DNA from: Haliclona indistincta
Lineage: Eukaryota > Porifera > Demospongiae > Haplosclerida > Chalinidae
NCBI GenBank assembly: GCA_964017065.1
Contig: OZ024788.1
Coordinates: forward strand, 11,966,776-12,030,775
Direction of reading: 5' to 3'
Length of the DNA stretch: 64,000 nucleotides
Shown here: positions 7,493 through 53,036 of the stretch, one piece after another
Position numbering within the stretch: position 1 is the first letter of the stretch
Layout: the number at the start of each line of letters is the position of its first letter
The notes under the pieces: model-generated
The model's input: the letters and a program-made list of their open reading frames with translations, nothing else
Told to the model about the DNA's origin: nothing
The model's database searches: none
Program-made: the position numbers and the translations under genes

Positions 7493-8700
7493 AAGAAAAT
7501 AAAAAGATTTCTAACGAAATCAAAAGGATGTAGGGATAAAGAAATCTGCTACTGGTCCACAATGTAAACCAACAAGGAGCAAGCATGGAATGGTAACACG
7601 ATTGACTTGCTAACAGACCATAGATCCCTACATCAGTGGCTGTACATAACATTTTGACTATACTATAATTATCTAAATTCAATTCAATGCATGTCAGGTG
7701 TCAGTCAATAGCAACTAGCAGAACTGCTGTAGTCAGCCACTGATGTAGGGATTTATGGTCTGTTAGCAAGTCAATCGTGTTACCATTCCATGCTTGCTCC
7801 TTGTTGGTTTACATTGTGGACCAGTAGCAGATTTCTTTATCCCTACATCCTTTTGATTTCGTTAGAAATCTTTTTATTTTCTTGTTTGTGTCCTTTTTTC
7901 TTTTACAGTGAGTTTCAAATTTTGGGTGCAGTTCGAATTCGGCAAGATAATGTATCTCTTTTTTGGTTCCATCATTGGTTTGGTTTGCTTTTCTTGATAA
8001 TTGCTCTTTAACTTGTAGCTCCTAAATACTGAAACTAGCTCATGCATTCATGCATGCTGCAGCCTGGATGCACAGCATACGAGCCCCGCCCACTCTGGTT
8101 TAAAATTTTCTCAATGGCTGTGATACTATCTGGCAAGCAGCAGAACGATGATACTACACGAGGTTACTCTGTGAGTTGTTCTTCGAAGACTCCAGACGCC
8201 AATATATGCTCTCCATACGGCCGGCGATACTCTACAAGTGTGTTTGGTCACGTGCGTATTACGTAATCACAATAATGGCGTCAAACACTTAGCTGACAAC
8301 TGTTCGTGATCGTGAGCTCATCAAATGTATATCGTCGTTTCGCTAAAAACTAAGTTCAAAAGGCACATGCCAGGAGAATTTCACGACTGTTCGTGGGTGT
8401 TTTGGTCCCGACACTGCTCGCGTAAAGGCGCTAGGCGAGTTGAAGAAAGAAAGAAAGAAAACAAAGATGACGAAAGTCGATTTTCACCGTTTCCAGGTTC
8501 GTCACTTTAGTAACAATTTCGAGCAATCTCCTTGCTACTGTAAGATGGGGCAACGCCAGAGAGCAGATCTAAGTGTCTTTGGACGTATACAATTCATCAC
8601 CAGGCGAAATATCAGCATTTGAACGCTAATACATTGTATGTAGCCGCCATCTTCTTTTCTCGTTCATCCCTACATAGGGAGTCACTACCGTGCCTCCCTA
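7493..8700 (-). mobile_element. Family S repeat, copy a
   Basis: About 1.2-kb repeat inserted in family R. Its left end is a long hairpin (7493-7882, arms about 150 bp containing ACCATAGATCCCTACATCAG and the inverse). Its right end, read inward on the minus strand, is TAGGGAGGCACGGTAGTGAC, followed by TCCCTATGTAGGGATGA and GATGGCGGCTAC. Family R copy 2 shows the uninterrupted flank (TATTAGCATAAGTGCC), placing both edges. No clear target duplication is visible. Other copies: 19873-21076, 23018-27840, about 32395-33445, and 36545-37743. Confidence 0.8.
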
Positions 8701-10288: not shown

Positions 10289-12681
10289 TCAATGTTTGAC
10301 AAACGGTCCAAAATCTCTTAGTTTTCGTACTCTAGTAGACCTTCGAACTGGAGCTGGAGGAAGTGCAGGTAAGATATTTGGAACAAACTCTTCACCGGAA
10401 TCCGTATCATCACGTGAGTCCTCTTCAGAGTTTCTATTCGTGTCTTCTGAATCGCTTGGATCAGTATCTTCACATGATTCGAAGTCATCGGATGACGATG
10501 ATGATGCTCCCGATGAAGAGGTATCGTGCTCTGACCCTTCCTCCGAGTGGTGATTGAATGGAAATATAACTGTATCTGGTACTTCTTCTGCTGGAGCTGG
10601 AGCAGCTGGAGTAGATCTTTCTTTGAATGGCTTAAGTCTGTCAAAATGTACGACAAGGCGTCGTCGAGGAGGTTCGATGCTTGTGATTCTGTAATGGGAA
10701 TCACTCAAGACCTTGACAATCTTAAATGGACCTCTCCATGGACGGTGAAATTTATGTGCTTGTCCCCGTGGTACAGCAGGATGATGTAACCAAACAAGAT
10801 CATCCATTTTAAAAGGATTGCCACATGCCCTCTGATCATATAAATCTTTTTGCCGGTGTTGTTGTGCCCGAGTATGCTCACGATTATGATGATATGCTTT
10901 TTCTAACCTCTCTCTCAACCTGAGTGCATACTGATTAGTGTTGGGAGAAGTATCAGTCTCTGGCAATCCAAACATGAGATCCACTGGCAAACGTAACTCT
11001 CGTCCAAACATCAGACTGTAGGGCGAGGCTCCAGTTGTTTCATGTTGACTCGATCGATATGCCATCATTAGCATGGGGAGCTTAACATCCCAGTGAGTCT
11101 CATCTTCCACTGCTGCGAGGCTCAGCATTGTCAACAGAGTCCTGTTGAATCGCTCGATCATGCCATCAGATTGGGGATGATAAGATGTAGTCCTAGTTTT
11201 TTTTATCCCCAAGAGCTCACATATTTGCTTGAGTAAACAAGACTCGAAATTACGGCCCTGATCTGTATGGAGATATTGAGGTGAACCAAAACGACACAAA
11301 AATTGGTTAACAAAAATATGAGCAACAGTTTGAGCCTCCATATTTGGCTTGGGGAAAGCCTCTGTCCATTTGGTAAAATAATCACCAATGACCAATATGT
11401 ATTTATTACCAGCCTGTGTCATAGGTAAAGGTCCCAAGATATCCATAGCTACTCGTTGCAGAGGTACCCCTGCTTGTTCTATTTGCATTTGTGCTCGTGG
11501 TTTCTTGGAAGGACTCTTTCTGGAGATACACAATGGACAACAACGGCACCAATCTTCGACATCTCGTCGCTGACCAGTCCAATAAAATTTCTGTCGGACT
11601 TTTTCCAAAGTCTTGGTCACTCCAAGATGACCCCCAGTGGTTGAGTCATGTAGCTCCTCCAAAACAGCAGGAACAAGAGTTGCCTGAAGGACCAATTGAA
11701 GTCTCTTGCATGCTCCTCCATGTGGAACATCCTCCCACTGACGATAAAGTAAGTCGTCTCTGAGGACAAGTTGTTGTCTTTGCGACCAAAGGGTTTGAAG
11801 ACGATGGCTAACATGTCTTGGAAACTGAGAAGGGAGACTATCAGTTTTCAACCAAGTGATCATCTGTGACAGATCGGGATCAGCCTGCTGTTGTTGCAAT
11901 AGATCTACTGTCGGAAACCAATTACTTGGTACAATCATTGCCACCGTAGGCTGATCTTGAAACAAGGAGTCACCTTCGCCGCATTGAGAGCAAGGTCTTC
12001 GGGATAAAGCATCTGCATTTTCATGTTTTTGCCCAGCACGATGGCTGACAGTAAAATCAAATCTTGAGAGTAGCTCTAACCATCGTGCCACTTGACCCTC
12101 AGGCTCTTTAAATGACTGTAACCACTTGATAGCATGATGATCTGTACGAGCAAGAAAAGAGCGACCAAGAAGATAACATTGAAAATGTTGAGCACCCCAG
12201 ACTAATGCCAGCATTTCTCTTCTGGTTGCGCAGTATCGTCGCTCAGATTTTGTAAGCCGCCGACTTGCATATGCCACAGGTCTCTCTATCCCGTTATCGC
12301 ACTGAGATAGTACTGCACCCAATCCTTCGCCGCTAGCGTCACAATCCAAGATAAATTTTTGATTAAAGTCAGGAAAGGCTAGTACAGGTGATGAGGTAAG
12401 TTTGTCCCTTAAATCTTGAAATGCTGTTTCACATTTTTCTGTCCACAACTATTCTTTATTCTTCTCTGTGAGAGTATATAGAGGTGCAGCAATCATGGCA
12501 AAATTTTTAACAAACCTCCTATAGTACGAGGCAAAACCGAGGAACTGTCGAAGTTCTTTCGTATTGCAAGGTGTCGGCCATGTTGTGACAGTCAGGGTCT
12601 TCTCTGGGTCTGTCTCCACTCCACGATCACAGACGACGTGGCCAAGGTATTTGACACTTGTTCGAAGCAACTTGCATTTAC
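10289..12681 (-). pseudogene. Gypsy 1 pol: end of RT, RNase H, integrase
   Basis: Downstream half of the polyprotein. The RT tail (LLRTSVKYLGHVVCDRGVE) runs from the hAT junction to an in-frame TAG at 12449-12451. RNase H follows (FILDCDASGEGLGAVLSQ), then the connector with an H2C2 zinc-binding region (HDSTTGGHLGVTKTL and CRCCPLC), then the integrase catalytic core (MDILGPLP, HTDQGRNFES, IERFNRT supplying the D, D and E), and an acidic Ser/Asp/Glu-rich C-terminus ending at 10289. No chromodomain is recognised. The 719-residue stretch after the stop is uninterrupted, so the stop may be recent. Confidence 0.92.
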
Positions 12682-49085: not shown

Positions 49086-49448
49086 AGTTTACGTATTTTT
49101 ATGTGGCATCATCATAGAACAGAGCTGAATTAAGACACGTTCTCGTTCATAACACCTGGTCGTTGCCACAACTTCTTTTATTCGGAGTTTTGGAATTCCT
49201 GTCACAAATTACTGGGCAAGCAAATTAAATTACGTTAGTATACAAATTCATAAAACCAGTACCTGTACACTTAAGGTGGTGTACAGGTACTGGTTAGCAA
49301 ACACAACACAAGAAAATGTAGAGCTGAAGGAAGATGATTTATTCTGCATGGCTACTGCTAAGCCATTATAACAGGAAATTTAGAATAACTCGCTATAATC
49401 ATAATAATCTCAAAGATACTCATATGACTATATACCTTCAAATAGTAG
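49086..49448. other. 3' flank of the death-domain gene, no gene seen
   Basis: Contains a short hairpin (ACCAGTACCTGTACAC...GTGTACAGGTACTGGT, about 49256-49294). No coding sequence supported. Confidence 0.4.
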
Positions 49449-49524
49449 TTATATTGTCTTTTCAATGAGCTCAGCTAGTCCATCCAGTCCATCAGTCAGA
49501 TTGAGACACTCTATCAAGTGTTGA

Positions 49525-49695
49525 TGTTCCGCACATTCTAGGAATTTGCGCATTCTATAGAATGCGCTGCTCATTCTAGGAATTCCTAGAATGGGCGCCA
49601 TTCTATAGAATGGCGCCCATTCTATAGAATGTGCTGCGCATTCTATAGAATGGGCAGTCTGCAGAATGCGCAAGTCACTTGCTCATTCTGTAGAT
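49525..49695. repeat. Left terminal repeat: array of short palindromes
   Basis: Repeated units CATTCTATAGAATG, TGCGCATTCTATAGAATGCG, GGCGCCATTCTATAGAATGG and TTCTAGGAATTCCTAGAA. Inverse copy at 52485-52664. Confidence 0.9.
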
Positions 49696-49887
49696 ACGCA
49701 TAAGCATACCACAGCAGCCACTAGCCTATCTACATGGCATCAAGTGAGGTCTTCGTACTCCAGGACAAGTTGTGTCGTGTTCTACATTTAACTATGCACC
49801 CACAGTGTCGTTTATTAAGATCGAGTGATGTACAAAGCCATTCGTTTAAAATTATATATTATGCAATGAAGTAATAGTATCACACAA

Positions 49888-50531
49888 TCATTTGAAGAAA
49901 AGTTGAATCTCTTCTTTGCTTAATCCAGGATTCTTCTTTGTCATAGCATGTATCACCGACTGCATGAGAATGAACCATAATTAGACAGTAATGTGTGAGA
50001 TAATAATACCTCTCTAAATAAAATGTCGTTGCTTAGTCGAAAAGCCGTTTCTTCGTTTTTCACTAACTTCCACGCGATATCTTGTTGTAACTTGTATACT
50101 AGGTCACCTAACTATCAGACAAGAGAAAATCTTGAAATTACGCATTCAAACTCTGTATACCTCTTCACTAGTGAAGTGATCAAGAGATGCACCATGGGCA
50201 TCCAACTGCAGGATTTTCAATTCATTGGCATCACTCCCTGTTATGTGCCGTTTCAGAATCAAATTTCTGTCTTCATTTACTATGTCCCCTCTAATTATCT
50301 TGTTGAGGTATTCCTATACCAAAATATAGTTTTATACATAACGATTTGTATTAACAGCAACCTAATTCTCATCGATAGCAGCGCTTACTTCATCATACGT
50401 GGGCCACACAATTTCATTTACAGCCCTGTCATAAAATATTATTTACAAGACAATGTTTGTTACGCATACTTACATTTTCCCAGTTTGGATTTAGCAGCTT
50501 TTTCCTCCTCCAAATCACTTTGTGCTTTGAT
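49888..50531 (-). CDS. Unrecognised multi-exon coding segment inside the Ginger-like element
   Basis: Candidate exons, high to low: 50474-50531 (KAQSDLEEEKAAKSKLGK), 50389-50425 (AVNEIVWPTYDE), 50161-50313 (51 codons, EYLNKIIRGDIVNEDRNLIL ... LQLDAHGASLDHFTSEE), 50010-50107 (DLVYKLQQDIAWKLVKNEET ... SNDILFRE) and 49888-49959 (SVIHAMTKKNPGLSKEEIQL then FFK and stop). All have AG before and GT after, but phases do not agree at two junctions, so either some boundaries are off or the gene has decayed. The product is unknown to me. It does not look like integrase, and could be a captured host gene end or an accessory element protein. Confidence 0.45.
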
Positions 50532-50562
50532 CTAAATGTAATATGTGGACAGTAATTGATGC

Positions 50563-50563
50563 A

Positions 50564-50612
<49 letters not shown>
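50563..50612. repeat. (GT)n microsatellite
   Basis: About 24 uninterrupted GT units. A shorter (CA)n tract is at 50886-50913. Confidence 0.98.
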
Positions 50613-50615
<3 letters not shown>

Positions 50616-50885
50616 ACATCTTACTGATCACAATAGGCATGTAGGGAATAAATATTGCCCTACGAATATACACAATCGTATAGCTCGAGGTACACAATCG
50701 TATAGCTTGGCGACCTACAAATTTTAATAATAATAATAATGAAGCACCACGGTACAGATGCCTCGGTGTGTACCACACATATCACCAGAAGCATATCATA
50801 CACATTGCAATACAGCACAAAACAGAACAGTACAGTATCAGCGCTCAGTTTTAACCGAAGCAGATTTCTAGGTGCGGACAGAATG

Positions 50886-50917
<32 letters not shown>

Positions 50918-50992
50918 GGATACACAAATGAACTACTGTATGCCTCGTGGCTCCGCCCACCGAGGCATAATCACTGTACAATTCAAACTCAC

Positions 50993-51450
50993 TTCCATGG
51001 CTGTTTTCTTCTCGCCAATGTGCCCTTTTTCCTGGCAATGTATCTGTGTAAGTATGTCGTAGAAGTCCTCGACAAACGCTACCCTTCTCCACTGAGATGT
51101 AAATGTAGGATCATTCTCATTCTGTATAATAGAATTACGTCAGTTAAGTAATTGAGTTTGCTATCTAGATATGTATGCAATCAGAGACTTACAGGTTTCT
51201 TTGCTGGTAAACAGAGGACATCATACAACCCAAGCGCACTGTAAGATACTAGTTTGAATCCACGTCGCTTGACCCAATGCTTAAACCTAGCGTCGTGCGC
51301 TTCTGAACCTTTCAACACAGCCACTATTCTCTCTCCTTTCTTTGCCGTGACCGTCTTGCTCTTCTTACATTCTCCTTCAAACCATATCGTCTATGGCAAA
51401 ACTCTGTGAACTCGGCCCGGGAGTCCATGATCTTGGCCATGCCTTGACAC
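50993..51450 (-). pseudogene. KRBA2/Ginger-like transposase N-terminal exons
   Basis: Exon 51193-51450 follows a TTTCCAG acceptor: MAKIMDSRAEFTEFCHRRYG, then after a one-base slip CKKSKTVTAKKGERIVAVLK, ARFKHWVKRRGFKLVSYSAL and LCLPAKKP before GTAAGT. Exon 50993-51121 reads TSQWRRVAFVEDFYDILTQI and HCQEKGHIGEKKTAME before GTGAGT; phases match. The FxxWVxxKGF block followed by VEDFYDIxxxxH...GHxGxxKT is the region before the integrase core in KRBA2-like and Ginger-type proteins. The catalytic core that should follow is not found, so the transposase is truncated or rearranged. Confidence 0.6.
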
Positions 51451-52484
51451 CTGGAAAGACGGAGACAAAGTCCGTACACTGCTCCGCTACACAATGCAGG
51501 CGTGGCTATGGAGGCGGGGCTGAACCACTGCACGTGTACCAGAGACATAGGGCACTGAACCTGCCTCGCTCTAGCAGTGGACATGGGTGTTTCGTGACCA
51601 GTAGGGGACAGCATAGAAGAGAAGTGATTTTCGCCTCCCAAACCCGATACCTAGTAGTTGTGAGACCACGTCCACAAACAGACCTCGCGATCCAGACCAG
51701 ATACAGTACTGAAGTCGAACCTTGGTTACCAATACTTGTAAGCCATGTAGTAATCTTTCTTTGTTTTCATGGTGTGTAGTCAGTCACTTGTTCTCAGCAA
51801 TATACCTACATGCTCTATTTCAGCTTTTGTCCACCTCTTGTTCATTAATAGTAGGAGCTCAGTAGACTGGTCACCGGAGTTGATTTGCAGTATTGTTTAC
51901 CAATTGCAAATCCTTTAGTGTTCATTGAAATTTTAAACTGCTTGTCAATTTTGACGTTGAAGTGAAATTTAACCATTGTCATTGTTTCTCTTGGTAAACT
52001 ATCTATAGGTCTGGGGCAGCTCTGTCAATTTCTAGAAAGAGCAGCTCTGTCAATAATTGTCAGTTCCACCCAGAGTAGACAGTGTCACTATCAATTGAAA
52101 TTTCCTACATGTATTAAAAAAAACCTTTTTTTATTAATTACTATACAAAATATACTACTACACTACTACTAGTCTATACTAGTACAAACGAAAACTGCTG
52201 CATCACTGCTGGTAGTTGGGGTTGGTAGCTGCACTAGCGGATGAATCATTGGAGTAAGCAATGGCGTGCAACTGAGCTATAGGCTCCAGGGCAAGCCATT
52301 GCGCGCCTGATGGATGAGTAAGTTGAGTAGGCGGCAGCGTGTGCAAGCTAGGCTCCAGGGTAAGTTGCGCGCCTGATCAGATGGATGCGTTGAGTAGGCA
52401 ATGGTGTGCAAGCTAGGCTCTCGACATGCAGGGCTGCGGCGCCTCAGTAATCAACATTGACTCAAAGCGTACAAGTGTCTAGAA
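51451..52484. other. Right interior of the Ginger-like element, no gene seen
   Basis: About 1 kb without supported coding. A near-duplicate pair around 52290-52420 (CTAGGCTCCAGGGTAAGTTG, GCGCGCCTGAT, GGATG) indicates local tandem duplication. Confidence 0.45.
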
Positions 52485-52664
52485 TGAGCAAGTGACTTGC
52501 GCATTCTGTAGACTGCCCATACTATAGAATGCGCAGCACATTCTATAGAATGGGCGCCATTCTATAGAATGGGCGCCATTCTATAGAATGGCGCCCATTC
52601 TAGGAATTCCTAGAATGAGCAGCGCATTCTATAGAATGCGCAAATTCCTAGAATGTGCGGAACA
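52485..52664. repeat. Right terminal repeat: array of short palindromes
   Basis: Inverted counterpart of 49525-49695, with one additional GGGCGCCATTCTATAGAAT unit, showing that unit number varies between the two ends. Confidence 0.9.
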
Positions 52665-53036
52665 TTGATATGTGCGAGGAGCTGCTGTACTTGCCAGCCA
52701 TTGTTGAAGGATGGCTCGAGTGACACTCTTAGCACCATCTTGGATATGATCCTTCTTCATCAGATCAACTGCTGTTCCACTCTTATCTTTTAAGAGGCAC
52801 ATTCCAAACGTCATGTAATCTTTAGCAGAAATCTCTTTAATGATGTTCAGTGGTTTACCATCTGCTCCCCTCATTGTGCTCAATTCCAGTAAATTAGGAG
52901 TAACACCTAAAATGTTAATTAAACGAGTAACTATTGGCATGGCTTTTGTAAAGGCATATGGTTAAGGGTGTTCACACTCCTAAACATACGCAAAAAATGG
53001 AGAATTATGGTGGCTGTTTACCATTTCACAATTTAA

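Follow-up and report, generated by a model that had tools for sequence, protein, structure and literature searches.

The Ginger transposons have an integrase-type core, preceded in Ginger2/Tdd by an H2C2 zinc finger; YPYY and GPY/F motifs are among the features of Ginger1. As described by Bao et al. (2010, PMC2836005), Ginger2/Tdd elements have a 4-bp (or 5-bp) target-site duplication (TSD), the target RTATAY, the terminus TGTNR and terminal inverted repeats (TIRs) of about 50–180 bp, and Ginger1 elements have a CCGG or CCGT/ACGG target, TIRs of 40–270 bp and, at the C-terminus, a protease of Ulp1 or OTU type. Here we describe a 3,140-bp transposon, likely Ginger2-like, from the sponge Haliclona indistincta. 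It lies within a 64,000-nucleotide stretch of contig OZ024788.1 (assembly GCA_964017065.1, positions 11,966,776 to 12,030,775), referred to below as the window. Its ends are arrays of short palindromes centred at set distances from the tip, and a sister family in the same genome keeps nearly these distances with different letters. Judging from these patterns, the arrays are probably phased sites at which the element's own transposase docks as dimers.

Partial precedents for such ends come from other superfamilies. In the hAT element Hermes, two BED zinc-finger domains cooperatively bind a pair of quasi-palindromic subterminal repeats at strict spacing (PMC10368747). Hermes thus resembles the window element in having quasi-palindromic repeats near the tip at strict spacing, their binding by two zinc-finger domains being described for Hermes only, and differs in that its enzyme is of the hAT type, its target 8 bp, its TIR short and its repeats few, with one end the richer. 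Galileo and foldback elements share internally repetitive TIRs, a variable number of units and room for extra transposase-binding sites, but they have tandem direct repeats and longer TSDs and belong to the P and Mutator superfamilies (PMC3573991, PMC4079207). The units described here are inverted repeats, and among 45 ends tandem copies (21 bp) occur only in one, L022_b. In the open-licence PMC papers searched we found no transposon with ends made of phased palindromes, nor, in the portions of that literature available, a description of the end-recognition sites of Ginger-group transposases. An earlier note on this locus, made from the sequence alone, had known of no described transposon with such ends; for these papers the claim stands, qualified by Hermes and Galileo.

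Organization of the Palindromic Ends

The copy in the window has the tips TGTTCC...GGAACA and is flanked on both sides by TTGA. Its boundaries, which are those given in the earlier note, and its TIRs are as follows.

49521–49524, no strand: left TSD, TTGA
49525–52664, minus strand (that of the residual transposase exons): family-1 element, internally deleted, 3,140 bp, delimited by its tips, its TSD and alignment to the L009 copy
49525–49689, plus strand: left TIR, 165 bp; the first 108 nt are perfectly complementary to the right end, and BLAST extends the match to 165
52481–52664, minus strand: right TIR, 184 bp, with one extra 19-bp unit (BLAST, 165 query bases against 184)
52665–52668, no strand: right TSD, TTGA

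Five perfect palindromes, each at least 14 bp long, lie in the left end within 172 bp of the tip; dinucleotide shuffles of this sequence (5,000) gave a mean of 0.024 and a maximum of 2. Of the 23 palindromes of this kind in the entire window, the two ends of the element account for 10. Counted from the tip, each end carries a type-2 half-site (positions 10–20), a type-1 dyad (27–40), a type-2 dyad (48–69) and a second type-1 dyad (75–88), followed inward by further type-1 units whose number differs among copies. The two ends of the window copy are themselves unequal, the right one having an additional 19-bp unit and an innermost palindrome with one substitution. Both the construction from short palindromes and the unequal unit number had been proposed in the earlier note; the former is borne out by the shuffle test and recurs in the sister family. 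The sites in the window are listed here from the tip inward.

49534–49544, plus strand: left lone type-2 half-site CATTCTAGGAA, end positions 10–20, identical at 11 of 11 bases to positions 48–58 of the same end
49551–49564, no strand: left type-1 dyad CATTCTATAGAATG, centre 33.5
49572–49593, no strand: left type-2 dyad CATTCTAGGAATTCCTAGAATG, centre 58.5
49599–49612, no strand: left type-1 dyad, centre 81.5, within a 38-bp perfect palindrome (49587–49624)
49618–49631, no strand: left type-1 dyad, centre 100.5
49639–49652, no strand: left type-1 dyad, centre 121.5
52645–52655, minus strand: right lone type-2 half-site, end positions 10–20
52625–52638, no strand: right type-1 dyad, centre 33.5
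52596–52617, no strand: right type-2 dyad, centre 58.5
52577–52590, no strand: right type-1 dyad, centre 81.5
52558–52571, no strand: right type-1 dyad, centre 100.5
52539–52552, no strand: right type-1 dyad, centre 119.5
52518–52531, no strand: right innermost type-1 unit, one substitution (12/14), centre 140.5

The genome searched comprises 144 Mb in 46 contigs. Genome searches score the best candidates only, and all counts of copies and ends are lower bounds. The left end as a query gave at least 104 matches. We read 45 ends of this family (family 1), namely both ends in 19 elements plus 7 unpaired ones; a 20th pair, L022, has lost part of the first units of its left end, which is outside the 45. 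In representatives of three subfamilies grouped by eye, A (window), B (L030) and C (L017), the dyads are centred 33.5, 58.5, 81.5, 100.5 and 121.5 bp from the tip. The outermost dyad is kept in all 45 ends and those at 58.5, 81.5, 100.5 and 121.5 in 42, 40, 35 and 31, respectively, a dyad being called kept with at least 6 of 7 pairs at 33.5 and at least 8 of 11 at 58.5. The two innermost centres are retained in the fewest ends, so the inner units are the most variable. Units are fewer in L010_a, L013_a, L023_a and L026_b, and the right end of L022 (4130–4400) has a unit expanded into a run with a 21-bp period. A core, TTCTATAGAA, is conserved in family 1 (35 of the 45 ends used, 23 of them distinct). 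A resemblance of TTCNNNNGAA to STAT-type sites was considered and dropped.

The type-1 dyad CATTCTATAGAATG occurs at 154 sites genome-wide, against one for a control pattern. Of the 147 sites that were located, 141 lie within 200 bp of the terminal motif and a further five belong to arrays of the family, L024 having three next to a masked stretch and L030 two off the listed tip. We looked for arrays independent of transposon ends, which would have spoken against the earlier note, and saw none at 146 of the 147 located sites, seven of the 154 being unlocated; the single site away from family ends is in L047. Two irregular copies may be mentioned. In L030 (6772–8257) the family array and the listed tip are about 1.3 kb apart and the tip end stops partway through the type-2 dyad, which would fit an insertion of some other element at that point. 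At 61 bp, L046 (203–263) combines the TGTTCC...GGAACA tips with a single copy of CATTCTATAGAATG and is flanked by TAAA left and right; it stands outside the 20 pairs and is perhaps the smallest deletion derivative of family 1.

A Sister Family with Nearly the Same Spacing and Different Letters

An integrase 61–62% identical to that of family 1 led to two further elements, L039 and L040, of about 4.85 kb each, with tips TGTTAGGCGC and TATA on both sides. This second family comprises F2a and the non-autonomous F2b, whose ends are about 82% identical. The first 90 bases of its ends align to family 1 without a gap, matching the window end at 55 of 90 positions in F2b and 48 of 90 in F2a. Type-1 dyads are spelled CAATCCATGGATTG in F2b and CAATCCACGGATTG in F2a, and the type-2 dyad of the F2b end L052_a is CAAAGTATGGATCCGTGCTTTG. 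Of 29 family-2 ends, 27 keep the centre at 33.5 and 27 that at 58.5, and when all centres are compared, 33.5 comes first for a dyad of 7 pairs and 58.5 for one of 11. The third dyad is centred at 81.5 in 14 ends and at 82.5 in 13.

The changes between families are matched within dyads. The window end (F1A) and F2b differ at 10 of 25 dyad pairs. Eight of these 10 are compensated, meaning that both partners have changed and that they are complementary in each family. At each of 144 control centres at most one pair is compensated; none of 20,000 random substitution trials reached eight, and 19 of 20,000 did so with the changed positions kept. Between the window end and F2a, 9 of 14 changed pairs are compensated. 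A covariation alignment was made of 12 of the 74 ends (45 family-1, 29 family-2), which gave 11 distinct rows, the 1-bp-shifted b-ends of family 2 being left out. Its score was 0.454, compared with 0.188 in shuffles (0 of 500 as high) and at most 0.133 when the dyads were slid; the fraction of paired cells (95.6%) and the number of cells changed on both sides (47) also lay above each of the 500 shuffles and above all slid versions. Change is concerted among sites of the same type: in any one representative the type-1 dyads at 33.5 and 81.5 are spelled alike, and the half-site standing alone at 10–20 tracks the type-2 dyad at 11 of 11 positions in the window, 9–10 of 11 in F2b and 8 of 11 in F2a.

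TSDs in family 2 are perfect in 6 of 12 pairs and one base apart in 5; those of L050 do not match. Many of the best-scored F2b copies (0.8–0.95 kb; L052–L057 and elsewhere) are on contig C1. Two of them, L052 and L055, have identical ten bases on either side and may be one duplicated insertion. Long imperfect palindromes, apparently unrelated repeats, lie beside family-2 elements (L039, 7696–7851; L040, 1301–1423, 7573–7861 and 8614–8756). Four further integrase relatives (L037, L038, L041 and L042; 47–60% identity) yielded no TIR pair that convinced us within the sequence retrieved around them and therefore weigh neither way; L037 has one weak TGT..ACA candidate (17/24).

Transposase and Classification

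The window copy aligns in opposite orientation to positions 8303–7177 and 1822–1 of the 8.3-kb L009 element, and about 5.35 kb of an L009-type element has been lost from it. The three main aligned blocks have 8, 7 and 10 mismatches in 1,149, 1,032 and 837 columns, which makes the two copies close relatives. Because the deletion has removed the integrase exon (L009 element 2368–2814), the window copy would be mobile only with the enzyme of a longer copy. What it retains is the following.

51324–51650, minus strand: residual N-terminal transposase exon (MAKIMDSRAEFTEFCHRRYG...) in an open frame, with a frame shift after the exon

The earlier note had suggested looking for a full-length transposase, and the longest family-1 copies (L009, L010, L011, L029 and L030; 6.2–8.3 kb) do contain an integrase-core-like exon. 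This exon has a sub-threshold match to Pfam rve (E = 4e-7, 30.7 bits, cut-off 32.6) and is similar to PDB entries of retroviral integrases, the best at E = 2e-6; the D of SDNG and the E of VEQ are 38 residues apart. Upstream of the core, with exons joined by hand, there is a weak match to Integrase_H2C2 (E = 0.0043, 17.6 bits against a cut-off of 25.5), and towards the C-terminus there are weak, sub-threshold matches to Peptidase_C48 (Ulp1), with E = 0.024 in L039 of family 2 and 0.039 in L012. A cysteine-rich C-terminal exon is putatively CXC-like by its resemblance to that motif; a Pfam search gave no match. In L032 (931–1827), a 299-aa frame inside a family-1 element appears, by eye, to resemble the end of a LINE reverse transcriptase.

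Perfect 4-bp TSDs flank 16 of the 20 paired family-1 copies, that is, 15 of 19 together with L022 (TTTC/TTTC); in the other four (L012, L013, L017 and L020) the two TSD copies are one base apart. None of these copies has boundaries that differ from those of the window element. In the 15 perfect pairs the TSD bases are T in 13, A in 13, T in 11 and A in 9, with R preceding in all 15 and Y following in 13, and the insertion target resembles GTR-TATA-YAC.

The 4-bp TSD, the TATA-like target and the TIR length (165 and 184 bp, in line with the about 50–180 bp of Ginger2) are shared with Ginger2/Tdd (PMC2836005), as may be the integrase-type core and the H2C2 zinc finger, both seen here as sub-threshold matches. 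The differences from Ginger2/Tdd are the tip and the Ulp1-like C-terminal part, which that text describes for Ginger1. Family-1 tips are TGTTC and fall outside TGTNR, and those of family 2, TGTTA or TGTTG, fit it. The palindrome arrays are a further difference, the word "palindrome" being absent from the text of PMC2836005. With Ginger1, in the same paper, the window family has in common the 4-bp TSD and the TIR range, and perhaps the integrase-type core and a C-terminal Ulp1, both sub-threshold here, but its target is TATA-like and not CCGG or CCGT, which rules Ginger1 out. IS3EU/GingerRoot elements likewise have an integrase-related transposase but a 6-bp TSD and mostly TA..TA termini (PMC10045372); among our copies only L023, inserted within a TA repeat, matches at 6 bp too. 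The earlier note's Ginger-like label is thus sustained by the integrase-core-like exon, the TSD and the target and not by the tip. The window family is likely Ginger2-like, which its sequence features support in substance; because the family-1 tip falls outside TGTNR, we go no further than this label.

The Interrupted Host Exon

The insertion lies in a host exon, part of which is listed here.

52669–52961, minus strand: host exon part on the right side, resuming beyond the insertion to about 49450–49524; joined frame of 122 aa

Joining the flanks with a single TTGA yields a minus-strand frame of 122 aa that spans the junction, 115 aa of which match Pfam Death (E = 0.0013, 19.2 bits, Pfam cut-off 22.6); a Pfam search of the interrupted host frame gave no Death match. 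The earlier note's observation that a death-domain exon closes in frame around the element therefore holds, with a weak domain match. Elsewhere in the window there is a retroelement-type integrase match at about 11090–11389 on the minus strand (32% identity, in a frame of 719 aa).

A Proposed Role for the Arrays

We favor the view that the element's own transposase docks, as dimers, on these phased arrays, a reading we consider somewhat better than even. Because sites of the same type have acquired identical new letters while sitting at set distances from the tip, a protein dimer is the simplest account of the pattern, and because the transposase diverges together with the ends, it is the likely reader. 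Each dyad would be read by a symmetric protein, and the fixed distances would reflect the packing of several dimers on the DNA beside the cut, with dimers assembling on both ends ahead of cutting. Recognition would be carried out by the N-terminal domain of the transposase or its cysteine-rich CXC-like region, and the innermost units would be optional, gained or lost through recombination or slippage. Identities between F1A and F2a are 62% for the integrase, 57% for the N-terminal part and 49% for the CXC-like part (62%, 45% and 45% between F1B and F2a); the greater divergence of the last two lends weak support to their serving as the reader. LIN54 and its TTYRAA site were weighed as an analogy and are not relied on.

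Several observations count against docking by a transposase dimer. The F2a dyads (CAATCCACGGATTG) have an unpaired centre, the family-2 dyad at 58.5 is imperfect, with 8 or 9 of 11 pairs, and subfamily C retains a one-sided break in its type-2 dyad (15 of the 23 distinct ends). Two covariation measures were not above shuffles, namely pairs changed on both sides (10 against 8.7; 64 of 500) and pair types (14 against 16.7; 500 of 500). The rows fall into two families, so the test is close to one comparison with few independent events; the dyads were, moreover, defined on family 1, and gene conversion between half-sites could mimic concerted change. The rve, Integrase_H2C2 and Peptidase_C48 matches are all under the curated Pfam cut-offs, and the CXC-like region is without a Pfam match. 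Finally, the ends fold well as nucleic acid: the left end as single-stranded DNA reaches -64.9 kcal/mol (z -15.0), and the F2b L052 end folds better than shuffles (z -5.4).

The last of these would be expected if the ends acted as hairpins or cruciforms, in DNA or in a transcript, as the earlier note had in mind when it suggested several small cruciforms per end, and compensated pairs suit base-pairing as well as protein binding. The 14-bp unit alone is nevertheless a weak hairpin (-1.3 kcal/mol), and the F2b unit gains nothing over its shuffles (z -0.66). Folded as a whole, the left end takes at lowest energy the shape of one long hairpin and not of several small ones, and the two families differ in this fold. 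An Rfam search of 49300–52900 gave no match, and a described RNA element there was dropped. Separate hairpins would be free to drift, with no reason to reach the same new letters; the joint change of dyads of one type therefore favors sequence recognition over cruciforms, and we regard folding as the function of the ends as very improbable, small cruciforms not being the best reading of them.

Recognition by a host DNA-binding protein, for instance as a switch of the transposase gene with the transposase reading only the extreme tip, seems to us unlikely. Such a protein would account for the conserved core TTCTATAGAA, which is expected of any protein site, and one of the two arrays does lie upstream of the transposase exons; yet position is counted from the tip and kept at both ends, and a joint change of letters between two families of one genome comes about more readily with a reader that diverges alongside the element. 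We give a similarly low chance to dyads without selected function, in which half-sites were copied and homogenised by slippage and by gene conversion between arms that kept their symmetry. The variable unit number (fewer in the four ends named above, extra 21-bp copies in L022_b) and the likeness of same-type units within a family are what this process would produce, but slippage would be expected to shift registers, and those at 33.5, 58.5 and 81.5 are kept despite differences at 35 of 90 end positions.

Beyond docking by the transposase, a broader idea may be put forward more tentatively, as one we hold to be possible but short of probable. The lineage may have a modular end code, consisting of a lone half-site (virtual centre 20.5) and two kinds of dyad at 33.5, 58.5 and 81.5, that would be read by transposase dimers via a domain other than the catalytic core. 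Spacing would be inherited and letters rewritten in all half-sites at once, so that families re-key their ends and would escape cross-mobilisation by relatives. The two families in one genome form a natural experiment, in which spacing is kept, letters differ and changes are matched per site. They provide exact candidate binding sites, together with a domain predicted to read them from the pattern of spacing and letters. There may also be a link to the assembly of retroviral integrase, where protein multimers also act on DNA ends. More generally, the pattern suggests how related transposons lose the ability to mobilise each other.

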